Shown here piece after piece: positions 318-11,921 of a DNA stretch of 64,000 bases (the first letter of the stretch is position 1; each line of letters begins with the position of its first letter). Source of the DNA: an uncultured Aquimarina sp. GTDB taxonomy: Bacteria; Bacteroidota; Bacteroidia; Flavobacteriales; Flavobacteriaceae. The notes beneath the pieces are model-generated. The model made no database searches. It was not told where the DNA came from and was given only the letters and a program-made list of their open reading frames with translations. Location: the NCBI GenBank assembly GCA_938011245.1, contig CALLUJ010000033.1:1-64000 (forward strand), written 5' to 3'. Position numbers and translations under genes: made by a program.

Positions 318-1511
318 ATGGCTAAAAAAGACACTAATAGTTTGGATTCTGCATTTGGTGAAGTTATAACCCCAGATGATTCTGATTTTGATGAAAAACC
401 AAAAGCATTAAGTACTTCTTTTGGAGATGTAATAATACCATCTGAAGATGAAATTAGAGGAAACCTTAAATTCATTAAACCTGTAATAAAAGGAAATAAA
501 GCTAAAGCAGCAGATTTTAGTGATTCTGAATATTCTGCCTTTAATCTTTTTAAAACAGAATTTGAAGAAATACCTACTCTTCTAGAGCCTATATTCCCAA
601 AACAAGGTTTAGTTTCTTTAATTGGTTCTTCTGATACTGGTAAAAGTACTTTCCTTAGACAATTTGCTCTTTCTATAGCATTAGGATTAAATGAGTTTGT
701 TGGTTACAAGTTAAATACAGAAACACAGAATGTTATTTTTATTAGTACCGAAGATGACCCTAATTCTGTAAGTAGTTCTATAAAGAAACCTTTAAGAGCA
801 TTATTTAATCAACATAATGCAGATGAATCTTTATTAAATCATTTAAAATTTATATTTGATGTTGACCTTACTGAAAATAGTGAGAACAACATCATTAAAC
901 TTCTCAACAAAGATTTGTCTGAAAAAGGAGTTGATTTAATTATTGTAGATGCTTTTACTGATATTTTTAGTGGAGATATTAATTCAAGCACTAAAGTGAG
1001 AGAGTTTTTAAATCTCTTCAGTAAAATTTCTAAGGAGTATGAATGCCTTATCCTCTTCCTTCATCATACAGGTAAAAAAACAGATAAATTTTCTGCTTCT
1101 AAAAACAATGCTTTAGGCTCTCAAGCCTTTGAAGCTAAAATGAGGGTAATGCTTGAATTAAAGCACCACCCACATAATGACATGCAAAGAACTCTTACTA
1201 TTACTAAAGGAAACTACATTTCTACAGAAATTAAGAAGTACTCTAAAGTTTTAGATTTTAATGAGGAAAATTTATTGTTTACAGATACAGGTAACCCTTT
1301 ACTTTCTGAAAGCATATATGCCTTGAGTAAAACCAACCCTAAGAAGAATAGTTTACTACCAGTAATAGAAAAGCTCCACAAAGAAGGCAATTCCTATAGA
1401 ACCATAGAAACTATTCTTAGAAATAAAGGTCATAAAATTAGTAAATCAACTGTTGAAAATTATTTAAAAGAAATAAAAAACCAATCTGCTAACATAATAG
1501 GGAATAATTAA
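318..1511 (+). CDS. AAA ATPase, RepA/DnaB-like (AAA_25-type) helicase candidate
   Basis: Walker A GSSDTGKST, Walker B-like DLIIVDA, LILFLHHTGKK motif, C-terminal HTH-like segment. ORF opens at 225 (GTG) but MAKKDTN at 318 is the likelier start. Confidence 0.7.
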   Translation: MAKKDTNSLDSAFGEVITPDDSDFDEKPKALSTSFGDVIIPSEDEIRGNLKFIKPVIKGNKAKAADFSDSEYSAFNLFKTEFEEIPTLLEPIFPKQGLVSLIGSSDTGKSTFLRQFALSIALGLNEFVGYKLNTETQNVIFISTEDDPNSVSSSIKKPLRALFNQHNADESLLNHLKFIFDVDLTENSENNIIKLLNKDLSEKGVDLIIVDAFTDIFSGDINSSTKVREFLNLFSKISKEYECLILFLHHTGKKTDKFSASKNNALGSQAFEAKMRVMLELKHHPHNDMQRTLTITKGNYISTEIKKYSKVLDFNEENLLFTDTGNPLLSESIYALSKTNPKKNSLLPVIEKLHKEGNSYRTIETILRNKGHKISKSTVENYLKEIKNQSANIIGNN

Positions 1512-2002
1512 GAAAGTGAGGAATTATGATATTTAGTATTTCTTATTGAAATCCCTGTATTTTCATCTTTCTTAACTAATAACTCTAAAACTGTATTAGT
1601 ATCTAAATTGCAAGTTGCTCTATAAGCTATAAATGGGTTTATTACCATTCTTCTATTTTTTGGTAAATAGCTATTTATTTCATTTAATAAATATTCAAAA
1701 TGATTTCCTTGAAACCTGTAGTAAACAGCACTCAAAATATCTGCATTAAATAGTAATACAATTCCTCTTGAAATAGGTAAACCAAAAAGTGTTTTAAAGT
1801 CACCCTTTTCATATAGGTATATTTCATAACAGATACCATTAACTGTTTTCTCTCCTTTAGACTTTAAATCAAACTCATAATTTTCATATTGCTCACCAAT
1901 TGTAAACCTAAGTTGCTTTAAAAGGTTCTTTTTACTTTTAAAAATACCTGTAACTAAAAAAAGCCACCTTTTAAGATGGCTTTTGAAAATTTCCTTTAGC
2001 AT
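1508..2002 (-). CDS. Hypothetical protein, 164 aa
   Basis: Intact ORF; no family recognised; a terminator-like hairpin lies in its 5' end. Confidence 0.5.
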   Translation of the reverse strand: MLKEIFKSHLKRWLFLVTGIFKSKKNLLKQLRFTIGEQYENYEFDLKSKGEKTVNGICYEIYLYEKGDFKTLFGLPISRGIVLLFNADILSAVYYRFQGNHFEYLLNEINSYLPKNRRMVINPFIAYRATCNLDTNTVLELLVKKDENTGISIRNTKYHNSSLS

Positions 2003-2006
2003 AATA

Positions 2007-2789
2007 TTAATCTATTGAGTGAGTTGCTGTAGAAAAAGTATAGATAAATGTTTGTCCTATATTAATGGATAAATTATTATCATCAAAGACTACATTATTA
2101 CTTCCATCATATATTTCAACTCTATTTATAACTGTTTGGCTTGCACTTTCAGTTTGATATTTAAAACCAATCTTGTCAAAAGTAGCAAGTGTATTTACCA
2201 CAAAAATATCTGTATTAGTTGTAGTCATTATAGTTTCGGATTCCAAATTACCATTTAAATTACTTTTGTAAAAAGTAGCTGTAAGGGGATATTGTTGATT
2301 AGGTGTTGAAGAACCTGAAAATCTGATTCTGTATTCTCTAAGTTGAATAGAATCACTAGATTCTAGACAATCTCCATCTACAGTATTACCAACTCTTGAG
2401 TATTCAAAGCTATCCCCATCATTTTCAACTCTTAATTTTCTACCATTAACTTTACCAGTTAATATACAGTTGGAAAAAATAGAACCTCCATTACAAACTG
2501 TGTTAAGGGTTATTTCAAGATTCGATGAATTGTAACTATAAGTTCCTTCATATGCTTCTTCATCAACTAAATTGCCATTTCTAAACCCATCAAGAATAAG
2601 TTTTACATCATTGTCATTAAGAAAGTAAAGCAATAAGTCTTGCTGATAACCATCTACTACTGGACTTATGTAATTCCATTCTGTACCACATAAACTTAAT
2701 GGTGTTTCTTCTTGATTATTACCATTATCATCACTAGAACAGGATAGTAATGTAAAAAACGCTATTAGTATTAAATAAATCTGTTTCAT
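2007..2789 (-). CDS. Putative lipoprotein, 260 aa
   Basis: MKQIYLILIAFFTLLSCSSDD lipobox signal. Confidence 0.75.
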   Translation of the reverse strand: MKQIYLILIAFFTLLSCSSDDNGNNQEETPLSLCGTEWNYISPVVDGYQQDLLLYFLNDNDVKLILDGFRNGNLVDEEAYEGTYSYNSSNLEITLNTVCNGGSIFSNCILTGKVNGRKLRVENDGDSFEYSRVGNTVDGDCLESSDSIQLREYRIRFSGSSTPNQQYPLTATFYKSNLNGNLESETIMTTTNTDIFVVNTLATFDKIGFKYQTESASQTVINRVEIYDGSNNVVFDDNNLSINIGQTFIYTFSTATHSID

Positions 2790-2792
2790 AAG

Positions 2793-3233
2793 TTAGTTAT
2801 TAATGTTCTTAATAATATTTGTAATTTCATTTACCATGACATCAAAAGTCTGTAGTTCTTCGGTGTAACTCATTTTGTATTTATTAATTTTCACAACATC
2901 TAATGTTGTTAGTAAAGACTTTTTTATGGTATCAAAAACTACTATATATTTTGATTGCTGTTTTAGTTGCTCTGGTAGATTTATCATATTTAATTGACCT
3001 AACTGAACTGGTTTTTTACCTGCTTTAAGAAAAGCTAAATGATAAACTTTGTGAGACAGTTGGTTTATTTTTTCATCACTACTATTGTCAGGACTTTTAA
3101 ATAGTTCACTAAAATCTGTAAATACTTCATTTTTAAAGGAAATTACTTTAGTTGCATTTCTACTTTTAGTCCTAAAACTATCTATGATAAGCCCAACAAT
3201 TACAGCTATTACAATTGATACAATTATTCCCAT
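2793..3233 (-). CDS. Hypothetical protein with N-terminal transmembrane helix
   Basis: MGIIVSIVIAVIVGLIIDSF hydrophobic N-terminus. Confidence 0.6.
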   Translation of the reverse strand: MGIIVSIVIAVIVGLIIDSFRTKSRNATKVISFKNEVFTDFSELFKSPDNSSDEKINQLSHKVYHLAFLKAGKKPVQLGQLNMINLPEQLKQQSKYIVVFDTIKKSLLTTLDVVKINKYKMSYTEELQTFDVMVNEITNIIKNINN

Positions 3234-3427
3234 TATTTATGTTTTTTAAAAAACCATACATAGATAATTCCAAATACTAATATTGCACCTGGTATTAATC
3301 TAACTCCAGCAGAGTTTGAATTTCTAGTTTCTGAAATAAGAGCCATACTTACTGCTGCTACAACTATTACAGCTACAGTGAGTAATATTTTTATTCCCAA
3401 TAATTTTAACTTATTCATTTTTATCAT
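3233..3427 (-). CDS. Small membrane protein, 64 aa
   Basis: Two hydrophobic segments; overlaps the next gene. Confidence 0.55.
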   Translation of the reverse strand: MIKMNKLKLLGIKILLTVAVIVVAAVSMALISETRNSNSAGVRLIPGAILVFGIIYVWFFKKHK

Positions 3428-3484
3428 TTATGATAACTGTTCAAATATAATAAACTTCATCTTTGTATTTATCATAAAAGATAA
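3421..3484. promoter_or_regulatory. Paired operator-like palindromes in a divergent promoter
   Basis: TTATCATTTATGATAA (3421-3436) and TTATCATAAAAGATAA (3469-3484), 48 bp centre to centre, between a membrane-protein gene and an XRE regulator. Confidence 0.6.
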
Positions 3485-3488
3485 CTAA

Positions 3489-3719
3489 GTGTTTAAAATG
3501 ACAGATAAAGAAGAATTACAAAGAGCTGTTGGTAAACGTATTAAAGAATTAAGAGAGTCTAAAAACATTGCTCAACAAGACTTAGCTGCTGCTTGTAATT
3601 TTGAAAAATCTAATATGGCAAGATTAGAAGCTGGAAACACAAATGCTACTATTTATACCCTTAAAATTATTGCTAAAAACTTAAAAGTTGAGTTAGCAGA
3701 TTTAGTTAAAGATTTATAA
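3489..3719 (+). CDS. XRE-family HTH regulator
   Basis: VGKRIKELRESKNIAQQDLAAACNFEKSNMARLEAGNTNATIYTLKIIAKNL. GTG start at 3489 or ATG at 3498. Confidence 0.85.
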   Translation: MFKMTDKEELQRAVGKRIKELRESKNIAQQDLAAACNFEKSNMARLEAGNTNATIYTLKIIAKNLKVELADLVKDL

Positions 3720-6550: not shown

Positions 6551-7582
6551 TCAACTTAAAAACCAATGAAAAGAACCATCATTGATAGCTTTTGAAATAC
6601 TTTTTGTAAAATCAAATGCATTGATATTACGATTTAAAAAGCTATCAATATAGCTACTCTTATTGGCTGAGGTAAACAAGTTGTACATATCCCAAAGATT
6701 GATGTTTCCATCTTCATTTTTACAAAACCTTTCATCTTGGTAATAATCCTTAGCAATGGTAGAAATTTGTCCATCATTAATAAGTAATTGAGGTATTTCT
6801 AACTTCTCTTGCTTAGGTAAGAATTGATAAAGTTTAGCTCTGCCAACTAATTGGGCAAATTGTTTTTCTGGAAGTTGGTATTGGGTTAAATTTTGCATCG
6901 ACTTAAAATGATGCTCCATTTTGTAAGACTGTAATAACTCCATAATTTTGGCTTTCAATTCTCCATAGCTAGATACTTTTATTTCAGCAGAAAATCCATC
7001 TGTAGAAATACACAAATTACAGCATACCATATTTTGAAAACCTATAAACACTTGAAACTTTTCAAATGATTTTTTACTGTAAAGATTTTCTCTGTTATAG
7101 GCTCTAACTCCACCAACTATTAAGGATAATTTATTACCATTAATAGTTTCAGTAATACTTGGTATTCGGATAATAAAAGCCATTCTTTCAAAATATTGTG
7201 TCCTTTCATAGTCTAATAAATCTTTAGCCGATTTATGTATAGCCTCAGGAGTTCTACCTTTAATTTGGTGGCTAATTCTAATTTCAGGTTTACTAATATG
7301 ATGCCTATTAAACGTTGATGTTACACAGTCATTTGTAATATCAATAAACTCTTGATGTGCTATGGTTTTTTCGTTGTCTTTTGCGAATACAGGAATCACA
7401 CAATCCTGCTTTAAACAAGAAAGGCTAACCTCTTTTGTGTTAGCCTCTATAAAAGGATTTTGCTGAAATTGTAAAGGTTCATTTGATACCTGTATTAAAG
7501 AGGAACTATTGTTATTAACTCTTTTTACTACAGGTACTTTGTTTAGGATGGGTATATCCTTAGATACTGGTATAAGTTCCAT
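6551..7582 (-). CDS. DUF3871-like protein
   Basis: Recognised by overall sequence character (KGRTPEAIHKSAKDLLDYERTQYFERMAFIIRIPSI...); not searched. Confidence 0.6.
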   Translation of the reverse strand: MELIPVSKDIPILNKVPVVKRVNNNSSSLIQVSNEPLQFQQNPFIEANTKEVSLSCLKQDCVIPVFAKDNEKTIAHQEFIDITNDCVTSTFNRHHISKPEIRISHQIKGRTPEAIHKSAKDLLDYERTQYFERMAFIIRIPSITETINGNKLSLIVGGVRAYNRENLYSKKSFEKFQVFIGFQNMVCCNLCISTDGFSAEIKVSSYGELKAKIMELLQSYKMEHHFKSMQNLTQYQLPEKQFAQLVGRAKLYQFLPKQEKLEIPQLLINDGQISTIAKDYYQDERFCKNEDGNINLWDMYNLFTSANKSSYIDSFLNRNINAFDFTKSISKAINDGSFHWFLS

Positions 7583-7597
7583 AATAATTGATTTTAA

Positions 7598-8473
7598 TTA
7601 GTTAGTAGAAGGTCTATGCACTCCATTAGAACTGAAATTTTGAGGATTTATCAAACTTTCCAATTGTTGCTTTTTAGTTCTAAATTCTTCTTGATGTGAT
7701 TGCTGAAATTGTGGATTTTGCTTGTACAATTCCATGAGCTTATTTACTGAAAGACATTCTTTAATCCTATCTGATATAGGTTTGTTGTGTACAGGCTCAA
7801 TAGTACTCCATTGTAATAGTTTTTTACCTGTAGCAGAAGATATTATAAATTCAGGTTTTCCATTAAACAAGCCTGTCCTGTCTTTTGATGTTTTAACTAA
7901 ATGCTTATCATTAAGGAGTTCAAAGTTAACTGTCAGCTCATACTCAAAACCCTCCCTAGTGATTTCTTTAGTTCCATGTTTTACAACTTTAGTTCTACCA
8001 TTAGAACCTACATCTAAAGAGTAATCAATCTTTCTTCTAGTAGTGGTAATAATATGGCAATTTGACTGTAGTATTTTATCAATAAATGCTTGATGTCTTG
8101 GAGTAACCTTTGCCCAATCTTGAAACCTACCACCTAGTTGTTCTTGTATTTGTAAACAACCACCAGTACCAGACCATTCATGTGTAATGGAATCCAAAAT
8201 GCAGACTTCAATTCCTGCTTTTTCACAAACTTCTATAGCTTCAACATACCTTTCAGGAGAAAATGGAGCTTGTAAATCCAGTACATTATAATTACCTAAA
8301 TGGCTGTACAAACTAGCTGAACTGTTTTCTGTGTCAACAACTGCTATTTTAGACCAGTCATTGGTTAATCCATGTGCCAATAATAAGGCACTTGTTGTTT
8401 TTCCAAATCCACTTGGTCCAGAAATTCCTATGCGTAGTTTTACATTACTACGCTTACTTTGTTTTAATTGCAT
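7598..8473 (-). CDS. RecA-fold ATP-binding protein (phage/element type)
   Basis: Walker A GPSGFGKTTSA; Walker B VCILDSI. Confidence 0.75.
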   Translation of the reverse strand: MQLKQSKRSNVKLRIGISGPSGFGKTTSALLLAHGLTNDWSKIAVVDTENSSASLYSHLGNYNVLDLQAPFSPERYVEAIEVCEKAGIEVCILDSITHEWSGTGGCLQIQEQLGGRFQDWAKVTPRHQAFIDKILQSNCHIITTTRRKIDYSLDVGSNGRTKVVKHGTKEITREGFEYELTVNFELLNDKHLVKTSKDRTGLFNGKPEFIISSATGKKLLQWSTIEPVHNKPISDRIKECLSVNKLMELYKQNPQFQQSHQEEFRTKKQQLESLINPQNFSSNGVHRPSTN

Positions 8474-8604: not shown

Positions 8605-8612
8605 TATATTTG
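8605..8612 (+). promoter_or_regulatory. Bacteroidota-type -7 element for the polymerase gene
   Basis: TTTTTTGTATATTTGC. Confidence 0.5.
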
Positions 8613-8629
8613 CATTAGTCATTTAAAAC

Positions 8630-8720
8630 ATGAAACTCTAAAGGAGTACTAAATAATTGTGGTGTTTTATTTAGTTTAATACTTCTTAAGTCTGCTTTTG
8701 CAGCCCTCTTTTTTAGAGGG
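8630..8720 (+). promoter_or_regulatory. Structured leader: mini-ORF ATG-AAA-CTC-TAA followed by three hairpins
   Basis: H1 ACTAAATAA(8648-8656)/TTATTTAGT(8667-8675), extended by AGGAGT/ACTTCT; H2 CTGC-TTTT-GCAG (8692-8703); H3 CCCTCT-TTTTT-AGAGGG (8704-8720); start ATG at 8724. Confidence 0.6.
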
Positions 8721-8723
8721 ATT

Positions 8724-10238
8724 ATGTCTAACACCATTGACAAATCTCTTGCACCACAGAAATCTAGAGATATAACACCGCAAAACACACCTGTAAGTGC
8801 AAATCAGGAAAGTGTAGAGAATTGTCTTCCTAAAAGTTTAACTGCTTTCATTCCAAGTAATTTAGACCTTGATGAATTACTAAGGTTAATTCCGCCTACT
8901 TTTAAATATGATAAAGATGAATTTTTGTATTTAATAGATTTGATATACAAGTTAGCTTCAAAACAAATTAAAGATGAATCTTTTAGTTTTTTTATAAGAC
9001 CTCATTCTGCTTTAATGCAAAGAAGAGTAAGAGCATATAGAAATTGCCTTGATTACCTTGTTGAGAATAAAATTTTGATAGAGGATTCACAATATATAGT
9101 GAATAAACAATCTAGGGGTTTCATGTTTACACCCCAATATTGTACAGAGTTAAAGCAGACTAAAATAACAAATCAAAAACTCATCAAAAAAATTTTAAAA
9201 TTCTATAAAACAGAAACCAATCAACCTATACTAAATAATGATGGTTTAGATATTTTTCATCTATTAAAATGGTTTGAAAATGGAAAATTAAAAATTGATT
9301 ATCCTAAAGCAAAAGCATATCTAAAAGACCTGTACCATCAAGAAAATAAGAGTATAACAGAAGTAGAACAATATAAAAAAGTCTCTAAGGGCATAGATTA
9401 TAATTTTGAACAATACCAGAATATAAAAGCTATTCTTAGATATAATAGCAGATTAAGACCTCTTATATTATTCAACAATAGCACCTTTAATCCTACTGTA
9501 GATAAAACTGCAGGAAGATTACATTCAGTATTGACTCAATTAAAAAGTGATTTGAGACAATTTATAACCTATAATGGAGAACCATTAGTTTCAATTGATA
9601 TTGTAAATTCTCAACCATATTTAGCATCTGTTTTACTCAATGAAGAGAAATTTAAAGAAAATAAAATAACAAAATTAATACAACTCTACAATCCTAAATA
9701 CATATCTAATAATAATACTTCCATATCTTTCCCTATTATGTTAGCAAAATTAATTCAGCGCATAGAAACTAAAAATGACACTTTGAAATATATTGAATCT
9801 GTTGCCAATGGTCAATTCTATGAAGAGTTTGCTAAGCAGATGGGTGATAATAATTTGAGTAGAAATGCTATAAAAAAAGCAACATTTAGTTCAATATTTA
9901 GCCCCAATCAATTAGCAAAACAGCTTGAAGGTGTCAAATTATTTAAAGACGTTTATCCTAGTGTTTTTAAAGTTTTTTCAAAAGTAAAATCAGGTAAAGG
10001 CACTCATAGAACTTTGGCATGTGTACTACAAAATTTTGAAGCTAAGCTTATACTACATATTGCTTGTAAAAAAATAAGTAAACTCAATCCAGATATACCA
10101 TTATTCACACTTCATGATTCTATAATAACTACTCCAAGATATCAAACTCTTGTTGAGCATATAATGAATGAAACTCTATCTAACGGTGTTGGTTTTCCTC
10201 CAGTATTAAAAGTTGAAAGATGGGAACAGGTAGCTTAA
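8724..10238 (+). CDS. Family-A (PolI/T7-superfamily) polymerase-like protein, candidate TV-Pol / primase-polymerase
   Basis: Motif A VSIDIVNSQPYLASV; motif B RNAIKKATFSSIFSPNQLAKQL; LACVLQNFEAKLIL resembling the PolI INAPMQGTAADIIK helix; motif C LFTLHDSIITT. No exonuclease motifs seen; N-terminal winged-helix-like region. Confidence 0.75.
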   Translation: MSNTIDKSLAPQKSRDITPQNTPVSANQESVENCLPKSLTAFIPSNLDLDELLRLIPPTFKYDKDEFLYLIDLIYKLASKQIKDESFSFFIRPHSALMQRRVRAYRNCLDYLVENKILIEDSQYIVNKQSRGFMFTPQYCTELKQTKITNQKLIKKILKFYKTETNQPILNNDGLDIFHLLKWFENGKLKIDYPKAKAYLKDLYHQENKSITEVEQYKKVSKGIDYNFEQYQNIKAILRYNSRLRPLILFNNSTFNPTVDKTAGRLHSVLTQLKSDLRQFITYNGEPLVSIDIVNSQPYLASVLLNEEKFKENKITKLIQLYNPKYISNNNTSISFPIMLAKLIQRIETKNDTLKYIESVANGQFYEEFAKQMGDNNLSRNAIKKATFSSIFSPNQLAKQLEGVKLFKDVYPSVFKVFSKVKSGKGTHRTLACVLQNFEAKLILHIACKKISKLNPDIPLFTLHDSIITTPRYQTLVEHIMNETLSNGVGFPPVLKVERWEQVA

Positions 10239-10240
10239 AA

Positions 10241-11443
10241 CTACCTTTCCATCTTGGATTTCAATCTCTTTATTTCCTCACTCACTTTCTTTTGAACCAC
10301 TTCTCCATAGCTATCTTGTGTTACACTCATTTTAGAATGTCCCAATAGCTTAGATACAATTTCCATTGGCACATCATTATAAAGCAATACAGTAGTGGCA
10401 AAAGTCTTTCTAGCAATATGATGAGTGAGCTTCTTTTGAATGCCTAAAACTTCAGCTATTTCTTTCATATAAGAATTGAATTTTTGATTTGAGATTTTTG
10501 GTAAAAGTGATTCCTCAGGTTTATACTTATTTAGTATAATTTTTGCTTGCTCTAAAAGAGGAACTGAAATAAGTTCATTAGTCTTTTGCCTAGTCATTTT
10601 AATCCAGGTATTACCATCAAATTCTTTAACTAAGTGGCTAGAATTGAGGTTTGACATTTCAGTATATGCAAGTCCAGTATAACAACAAAACACAAATAAG
10701 TCCTTTACCTTTTGTAGCCTTTCTTGACTGAAATTATGGTTTTCAAGTAGTTTAAGTTCTTGAGTTGATAAATAAACAATTTTAGTTTTTTGCTTCTTAT
10801 TTTTATACAGGTTAAAAGGGTCTCGTTGCAAATAATTTTCAGCTATTGAAAACTGAATGATTTTCTTAAGCCTTTGCATACTTCTGTATATAGTAGCTTG
10901 CTTTAGCTTCTTTTCAGTTTTCCAATAATACTCTAAGTCCTTTATAAACTTCAAATCAAGTTGTTTTAATTTGATGTCAGATTTATTGTAGTTGTGCTTA
11001 ATAAACTCTGCTACCTTTCTTCTGCTTTCTACATATCTACTCCAAGAGAGTTCATTAAAATCTACCCCAATTAGCTTTTTAGTTTTATCATTATGCAAAT
11101 CATAAGCTCCCAAAAGGGTGATTTCCTCTTTAGAATCTTCTCCTTTAAACTTTCTGTAAATATCATCTACATCAAAGGTATTAGGTAGAATTTGAAGCAT
11201 TAAAAAAGCCTCATTAATCTTTTGACTAATAAGGCTCAGTTGAGTGTTTAAGTTTTTATACTTATTTGGTGGTTTAGCTAATTGTTTTAAACTATCCCAA
11301 TCCTCTGGATTGATAAATAGTCCAGTAGAGAATATTTTTCTCTTTTTTAAATATGTAACCCTACATCTTATGGGACACTTGTTTTGTTGATTCAACCTAT
11401 TCTTTTGTAAAAGAAATAAGATTGATATTTTATAATTATTCAT
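10241..11443 (-). CDS. Tyrosine recombinase / integrase, Bacteroidota type
   Basis: HHIARKTFATTVLL...LLGHSKMSVTQDSYGEVV, R-H-x-x-R-H-Y catalytic set, N-terminal arm-binding-type region. Confidence 0.95.
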   Translation of the reverse strand: MNNYKISILFLLQKNRLNQQNKCPIRCRVTYLKKRKIFSTGLFINPEDWDSLKQLAKPPNKYKNLNTQLSLISQKINEAFLMLQILPNTFDVDDIYRKFKGEDSKEEITLLGAYDLHNDKTKKLIGVDFNELSWSRYVESRRKVAEFIKHNYNKSDIKLKQLDLKFIKDLEYYWKTEKKLKQATIYRSMQRLKKIIQFSIAENYLQRDPFNLYKNKKQKTKIVYLSTQELKLLENHNFSQERLQKVKDLFVFCCYTGLAYTEMSNLNSSHLVKEFDGNTWIKMTRQKTNELISVPLLEQAKIILNKYKPEESLLPKISNQKFNSYMKEIAEVLGIQKKLTHHIARKTFATTVLLYNDVPMEIVSKLLGHSKMSVTQDSYGEVVQKKVSEEIKRLKSKMER

Positions 11444-11626: not shown

Positions 11627-11653
11627 AAGTGAGCCCTGAAGGATTCGAACCTT
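11627..11653. repeat. Right attachment repeat (attR-type) within the tRNA-Arg 3' end
   Basis: 27 bp identical to 137-163. Confidence 0.9.
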
Positions 11654-11702
11654 CGACCGCCTCCTTAGAAGGGAGGTGCTCTATCCAGCTGAGCTAAGAG
11701 CC
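11629..11702 (-). tRNA. tRNA-Arg (anticodon TCT)
   Basis: GGGCTCTTAGCTCAGCTGGATAGAGCACCTCCCTTCTAAGGAGGCGGTCGAAGGTTCGAATCCTTCAGGGCTCA folds as a cloverleaf; anticodon loop CTTCTAA. Confidence 0.95.
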
Positions 11703-11921
11703 CTTAGCATACGTTCTCTAAATAATTAATTTTAAAAAACTCAAGAAAAATATTGTTTCTTGAAGCGATGCAAATATACAATAGATATGCATTTAAAAAA
11801 GTATTATGCCTGTTTTTTTTAACAAAATTATCTATTTTTTCGAAATATGAAATTTTGTGTTTTTTATTCTTTTGAAATAAAGAATGTTAACTATTTGAAA
11901 TAATCTAAAAAATTATATTAA

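Follow-up and report, generated by a model that had tools for sequence, protein, structure and literature searches.

The integrative element and its polymerase gene

The window, by which we mean the whole 64,000-nucleotide stretch of DNA analyzed here, wholly contains an 11.5-kb integrative element whose ends are 27-bp direct repeats at 137 to 163 and 11628 to 11654, the right copy lying within the 3′ end of a tRNA-Arg gene. The order integrase, polymerase, AAA_24 ATPase, DUF3871 protein is common to 12 of the 13 related loci that were fetched (the exception being L062), sometimes with an extra gene inserted among the core genes; a tRNA gene adjoins the integrase in most of these loci, and the cargo is variable. 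Related elements lie beside tRNA-Met, -Asn, or -Val, and the starts of their cargo open reading frames (ORFs) appear to resemble restriction-modification and ATPase genes. A published 10-kb tRNA-Arg island in Riemerella (PMC6764341) may be similar to the 11.5-kb element. The features of the element, and of the leader that precedes its polymerase gene, are as follows.

137 to 163: att repeat, second 27-bp copy, left end of the 11.5-kb element
6551 to 7582, minus strand: DUF3871 protein, core gene
7598 to 8473, minus strand: AAA_24/Sak4-like ATPase, divergently oriented, core gene
8605 to 8612, plus strand: −7 promoter element TATATTTG, TAHHTTTG type, predicted transcript start at ~8617
8628 to 8633, plus strand: P1 5′ strand ACATGA, tentative partner of 8722 to 8727
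8630 to 8641, plus strand: mini-ORF ATG-AAA-CTC-TAA, codons not kept in homologs
8641 to 8687, plus strand: H1 hairpin, 8-bp outer stem and 8-bp inner stem
8657 to 8666, plus strand: H1 apical loop TTGTGGTGTT, putative pseudoknot 5′ strand
8692 to 8703, plus strand: H2 hairpin CTGC-TTTT-GCAG, pair probability 0.96
8704 to 8720, plus strand: H3 hairpin CCCTCT-TTTTT-AGAGGG, directly 3′ of H2, pair probability 0.98
8722 to 8727, plus strand: P1 3′ strand TTATGT, start codon inside, tentative
8724 to 10238, plus strand: compact DNA polymerase, predicted family A, 504 amino acids, ~33 N-terminal residues predicted disordered
8725 to 8742, plus strand: H4 start-codon hairpin TGTC...GACA
8751 to 8759, plus strand: GCACCACAG, coding segment that could pair with the H1 loop instead
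8774 to 8783, plus strand: coding partner AACACCGCAA of the H1 loop, codons 17 to 20, nine Watson-Crick pairs and one GU
10241 to 11443, minus strand: tyrosine integrase, core gene
11628 to 11654: att repeat, right copy, within the 3′ end of tRNA-Arg
11629 to 11703, minus strand: tRNA-Arg

The polymerase ORF (8724 to 10238) returned no significant sequence match in Pfam, PHROGs, NCBIfam, PADLOC, or PDB. A Foldseek search with an AlphaFold2 model built from 18 homologs (pLDDT, 81) returned the Klenow and apicoplast family-A polymerases (E, ~1e-6; probability, 1.0) at TM-scores of only ~0.4, while short phage proteins were better matches (TM up to 0.74), one of them named "Putative DNA polymerase I." The candidate catalytic aspartates D292 and D465, of which D465 belongs to an HD(S/A) motif, are unchanged in all 18 homologs. 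Residues 1 to 33 are predicted to form a disordered N-terminal tail. By its palm fold, the gene product is predicted to be a compact family-A DNA polymerase. Apparent distant relatives (24 to 32% identity) are encoded by megaphages of 595 to 735 kb (LR756501 to LR756504, LR756511, and LR745206), and a 686-amino-acid homolog in L015 (ORF 1495 to 3552) carries a C-terminal extension of ~200 residues.

Architecture of the polymerase leader

Rereading the sequence placed the promoter element TATATTTG, the mini-ORF, H2, H3, and ATG 8724 exactly where a preliminary description of this DNA had put them; H1 was also present as described there, except that it is one pair longer (8641 to 8687 rather than 8642 to 8686). 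The helix between H1 loop and coding sequence, hairpin H4, and the boundaries of the element are additions to that first reading. The −7 element follows the TAHHTTTG promoter consensus taken from PMC6847099, and 13 of 19 leaders have TAnnTTTG no farther than 200 nt upstream. In H1, AAGGAGTA (8641 to 8648) pairs with TACTTCTT (8680 to 8687) to form the outer stem and CTAAATAA (8649 to 8656) with TTATTTAG (8667 to 8674) to form the inner one. Only 3 nt separate the end of H3 from ATG 8724, and H4, which begins within the start codon, has counterparts in close homologs as TGTTGA/TCAACA or TGTTGT/ACAACA. The stability of the 8619-to-8740 fold (z = −2.45; 2 of 200 shuffles equally stable) would, taken alone, be unremarkable for AT-rich DNA. 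When the window leader alone was shuffled, 6 of 100 shuffles gave a hairpin of H3 quality within the 8 nt preceding the start; for 16 of the 19 leaders compared, the number was 0 to 7 of 100.

A further stem, P1, would enclose the start codon. By-eye pairs of this stem were GCCA/TGGC, TTCCA/TGGAA, and ATTCAT/ATGAAT, a swap permutation gave a p value of 0.019, and a Fisher test gave one of 0.07; since the stem is suggestive rather than firm in these objective tests, we do not claim it.

The preliminary description proposed that the mini-ORF might act in translational attenuation. The short upstream ORF has three codons in the window and 2, 7, and 14 in L003, L010, and L040, respectively; none was found in L038, and no counterpart was found in clade B. 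Because its codons are not conserved among homologs, attenuation through the mini-ORF is unsupported. The comparison with the tetQ leader of CTnDOT, a Bacteroidota mobile element in which that leader acts as a translational attenuator (PMC5418344), is an analogy only: tetQ is a resistance gene whose leader responds to tetracycline, whereas the polymerase leader has no conserved mini-ORF.

Conservation and covariation of the leader

Leader homologs were gathered from the Flavobacteriaceae and Weeksellaceae, with family names deduced from L001 (Chryseobacterium) and from the kinship table. Despite different sequences, the H1-H2-H3 arrangement lies directly before the start codon (ATG or GTG) in 18 homologs. 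H3 is clear in 16 of the 18, a weak A/T-rich stem taking its place in L013 and L078, and in all leaders, window included, the best hairpin ends 0 to 5 nt upstream of the start codon. On a covariance-model alignment of H1 to H3, 94.6% of cells are paired and double changes occur in 13 of 18 pairs, giving a covariation score of 0.466 versus 0.208 for shuffled alignments; none of 500 shuffles reached the observed score. Compensatory changes were also well above shuffled and slid controls in repeated alignments, including those of clade B. The preliminary description had named conservation and covariation upstream of homologous polymerase genes as the point on which its leader would stand or fall, and both were found, in 18 homologous leaders. 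We regard this conservation as decisive evidence that the leader structure is real; a helix test on hand-picked pairs is biased and carries no weight here.

A covariance model built from four homologs without the window ranked the window leader as its top match in 64 kb, with a modest score (22.9 bits, E = 0.012; runner-up, 12.9 bits, E = 2), and also recovered the corresponding position in L011, L046, and L047. Across 175 Chryseobacterium-group genomes, a clade-B model found polymerase leaders only, plus one weak match; this match, from an unrelated part of G507, was set aside, and it is the one exception to an occurrence solely before the polymerase gene. The H2-plus-H3 motif was also considered as a dispersed repeat and rejected, being found once in 143 genomes. 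No Rfam family scored at or near its gathering score in a search of the leader, and PADLOC, PHROGs, Pfam, NCBIfam, and Rfam yielded no convincing family for either the leader or the polymerase. Within the helices, GU mispairs outnumber AC mispairs (16 versus 7; p = 0.047), which is weak evidence in favor of RNA over single-stranded DNA; this and the other p values for the leader are approximate because the sequences are few and related by descent.

Predicted helix between the H1 loop and early codons

The H1 loop (8657 to 8666) is complementary to codons 17 to 20 of the polymerase gene (8774 to 8783), TTGTGGTGTT facing AACACCGCAA at +51 to +60, in a pairing that spans the start codon. Matching, covarying loop partners are present in all six clade-A leaders, window included, and lie at +35 to +48 in five of the six. 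The loop AGGTGGCTCT has the coding partner AGAGCCATCT in L003, and GGTGGTTCT has AGAACCATC in L040; L010 and L038 share the loop TTTGTTGTGATTC, with coding partners GAATCACAATAGA and GAATCACAATGGA; and in L011, the weakest case (own p value, 0.06 to 0.14), CATGATTT faces GAATCATG. Measured against codon shuffles, the combined Fisher p value for the six clade-A loops is 9e-7, or 1.4e-5 without the near-duplicate L010. The best-scoring partner was the leader's own coding region for four of the six loops, and the regions of other members mostly fit worse. With the register set by Watson-Crick pairs alone, the mispairs between loop and coding strand comprised five GU, no AC, and two others. A consistent, covarying coding partner of the H1 loop was looked for in clade B and not found, so the pairing is established for clade A only. 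Codons 1 to 34 of the polymerase gene are under excess synonymous conservation, with identical codons at 62 of 75 identical residues versus 557 of 1,018 later in the gene (p = 8e-7).

In a nested fold of 8619 to 8790, the loop-coding helix forms with a probability of 0.93 and H1 is displaced; in the shorter fold of 8619 to 8745, H1 has a probability of ~0.76. These folding models leave two arrangements for H1 and the loop-coding helix, simultaneous formation as a pseudoknot or alternation.

Start-site accessibility and relatives without a leader

Opening the region from −12 to +14 is predicted to cost 14.7 kcal/mol on average in leader-bearing polymerase genes (13.7 in the window) and 9.0 kcal/mol on average in leader-less polymerase homologs, compared with 2.7 kcal/mol for AAA_24 starts and 4.3 kcal/mol for integrase starts (Mann-Whitney p = 6e-9). 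In Flavobacterium johnsoniae, where mRNAs are without Shine-Dalgarno sequences, start-proximal structure reduces initiation (PMC6847099).

Instead of the leader, L039, L082, and L085 have a simple hairpin enclosing the start codon, and these same homologs are without the N-terminal tail of ~35 residues. Leader and disordered tail are gained or lost together across homologs, which the presence of the loop partner in the tail codons of clade A would explain. The close polymerase relative in L059/L039, a natural deletion of the leader where leader and tail are both absent and an additional 296-amino-acid ORF lies between polymerase and AAA_24, indicates that the leader is dispensable for the polymerase gene.

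Proposed control of the polymerase and alternative readings

We consider it probable that translation of the replicative polymerase of this element is repressed by a pseudoknotted mRNA leader. The leader (~8617 to 8723) and the first ~20 polymerase codons would form a single RNA control domain, in which the tandem H1 to H3, H4, and a helix between the H1 loop and codons 17 to 20 would place the start codon inside a closed, pseudoknotted structure. Such a structure would block ribosomes at the start and keep polymerase synthesis low, leaving the integrated element quiet or its copy number limited; the enzyme is probably kept scarce until needed. The conserved and covarying structure, the loop-coding pairing, the buried start, and the synonymous constraint are computational findings; repression of translation by this leader-plus-coding domain, and whatever relieves it, are inferred. 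A two-state switch is possible, as the loop-coding helix excludes H1 in the nested fold (unless both coexist), and a trans-acting signal might open the domain, perhaps the polymerase itself, by analogy with gp43 of phage T4. Leader-mediated translational control, as suggested in the preliminary description, is supported by the conserved and covarying helices, their fixed distance from the start, the loop-coding pairing, the buried start, and the synonymous constraint, though not in its mini-ORF part.

A more ambitious version, which we put forward tentatively and with less expectation of its being right, is that the domain is a ligand-operated switch of a new RNA family, with H1 and the loop-coding helix as its two states, by which a satellite-like element would sense its own polymerase, a helper, or the host, turning translation on at excision. 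If the main reading, repression by the leader, is true, it would provide a compact and testable switch for a widespread family of integrative elements that carry cargo and encode a compact family-A polymerase not described before, and exact mutations and compensations can be predicted. For Bacteroidota mRNAs, which are without Shine-Dalgarno sequences, start-site structure is among the few handles on initiation. Phage T4 and enterobacterial plasmids provide well-known cases of replication controlled by structured leaders; a limited literature search found no Bacteroidota integrative elements with such control.

The nearest working analogues of the proposed repression by a pseudoknotted leader would be T4 gp43 and gp32, together with the repZ pseudoknot. 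We assign the leader to none of these systems: gp43 is a family-B polymerase, so the polymerase families differ, and the window leader combines three or four hairpins with a pairing between loop and codons. The operator of T4 and RB69 gp43 is a single 16- to 18-nt hairpin with a conserved loop, located in the polymerase mRNA leader near the translation start, and it resembles the window leader as a structured mRNA element at the start of a replicative DNA polymerase gene; in the phages, the enzyme is under translational control (PMC3014915). The T4 gene 32 operator is an mRNA pseudoknot at a replication gene, where it nucleates cooperative binding and leads to translational repression, but it lies ~67 nt upstream of the start (PMC3014915), whereas in the window one strand of the helix lies within the polymerase codons, on the far side of the start.

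The leader might instead hold translation at a constant low level, in which case no switch, ligand, or trans factor would be involved. Selection may act on low expression alone, since the leader-less L039, L082, and L085 reach a similar end by simple start-codon hairpins. However, such tuning would need less than the observed combination of three hairpins in tandem, conservation of the H1 loop, and covariation in the loop-coding helix, and we think this explanation unlikely.

The preliminary description also allowed that the segment might act as DNA, as an origin or primer site; in that case the hairpins would act as single-stranded DNA. Hairpin-rich DNA does adjoin a replication polymerase gene here, and iteron-like repeats occupy the same place in L084 and L085. 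Nevertheless, the fixed spacing to the start codon, the pairing into the reading frame, and the synonymous constraint all fit poorly with a DNA-level element, as do a promoter that would transcribe the leader, the mild GU excess, and the existence of L039 without a leader; we therefore regard this as improbable.

Control of the kind found at plasmid rep genes, by antisense RNA or leader peptide, would have a pseudoknot activate translation rather than repress it, with blocking by an antisense RNA directed at the H1 loop. At repZ of ColIb-P9 and IncB plasmids, an upstream pseudoknot activates translation, and an antisense RNA and a leader peptide exert control. The resemblance lies in long-range pairing within one mRNA between a loop in the leader of a replication gene and a segment far from it, and the window has a mini-ORF; the repZ pseudoknot literature is cited in PMC10724649. 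Yet the mini-ORF is no conserved leader peptide, the loop-coding helix spans the start codon rather than lying upstream of it, and a search from −200 to +250 for antisense promoters of the Bacteroidota CAAAnnTA type alone found none in 18 of 19 leaders. This is weak evidence against the antisense copy-number control envisaged in the preliminary description, and control of the rep type as a whole seems to us decidedly improbable.

Far less credible is a retron-like arrangement, with the leader RNA as structured template or cofactor for the enzyme encoded right after it. The gene of a palm-type polymerase does have a structured RNA immediately upstream, one whose occurrence follows that of the N-terminal tail; retrons, however, join structured RNA to a reverse transcriptase, and here the gene resembles family-A DNA polymerases, PADLOC gave no relevant match, no template-like conserved segment is present, and close homologs retain the polymerase gene without the leader. 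We give least credence of all to transcription attenuation or chance hairpins: H3 fits a loose terminator pattern, but the U-tract is missing (ATTATGTC follows H3 in the window, and the homologs are likewise without a T run), so that an intrinsic terminator at H3 was rejected as unlikely, and covariation and conserved position speak against chance.

Other elements upstream of polymerase relatives

Several other loci carry different elements upstream of the polymerase gene. In L084 and L085, iteron-like GGTAAAGCTA/GGTAAAGCCA repeats stand in place of the leader ~40 to 120 nt upstream of the polymerase start and are a possible replication origin. The viral contigs L063 and L064 have a strong, A/T-flanked, terminator-like hairpin, AAAACAGCTCCAGGGGAAACTCTGGGGCTTTTT, directly upstream of the polymerase start. 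Finally, a catagtaaaa...ctatgtacag...gctatg element recurs upstream of the distant homologs in L025, L027, L029, L030, L035, L092, and L093, and is possibly another conserved RNA or DNA structure.
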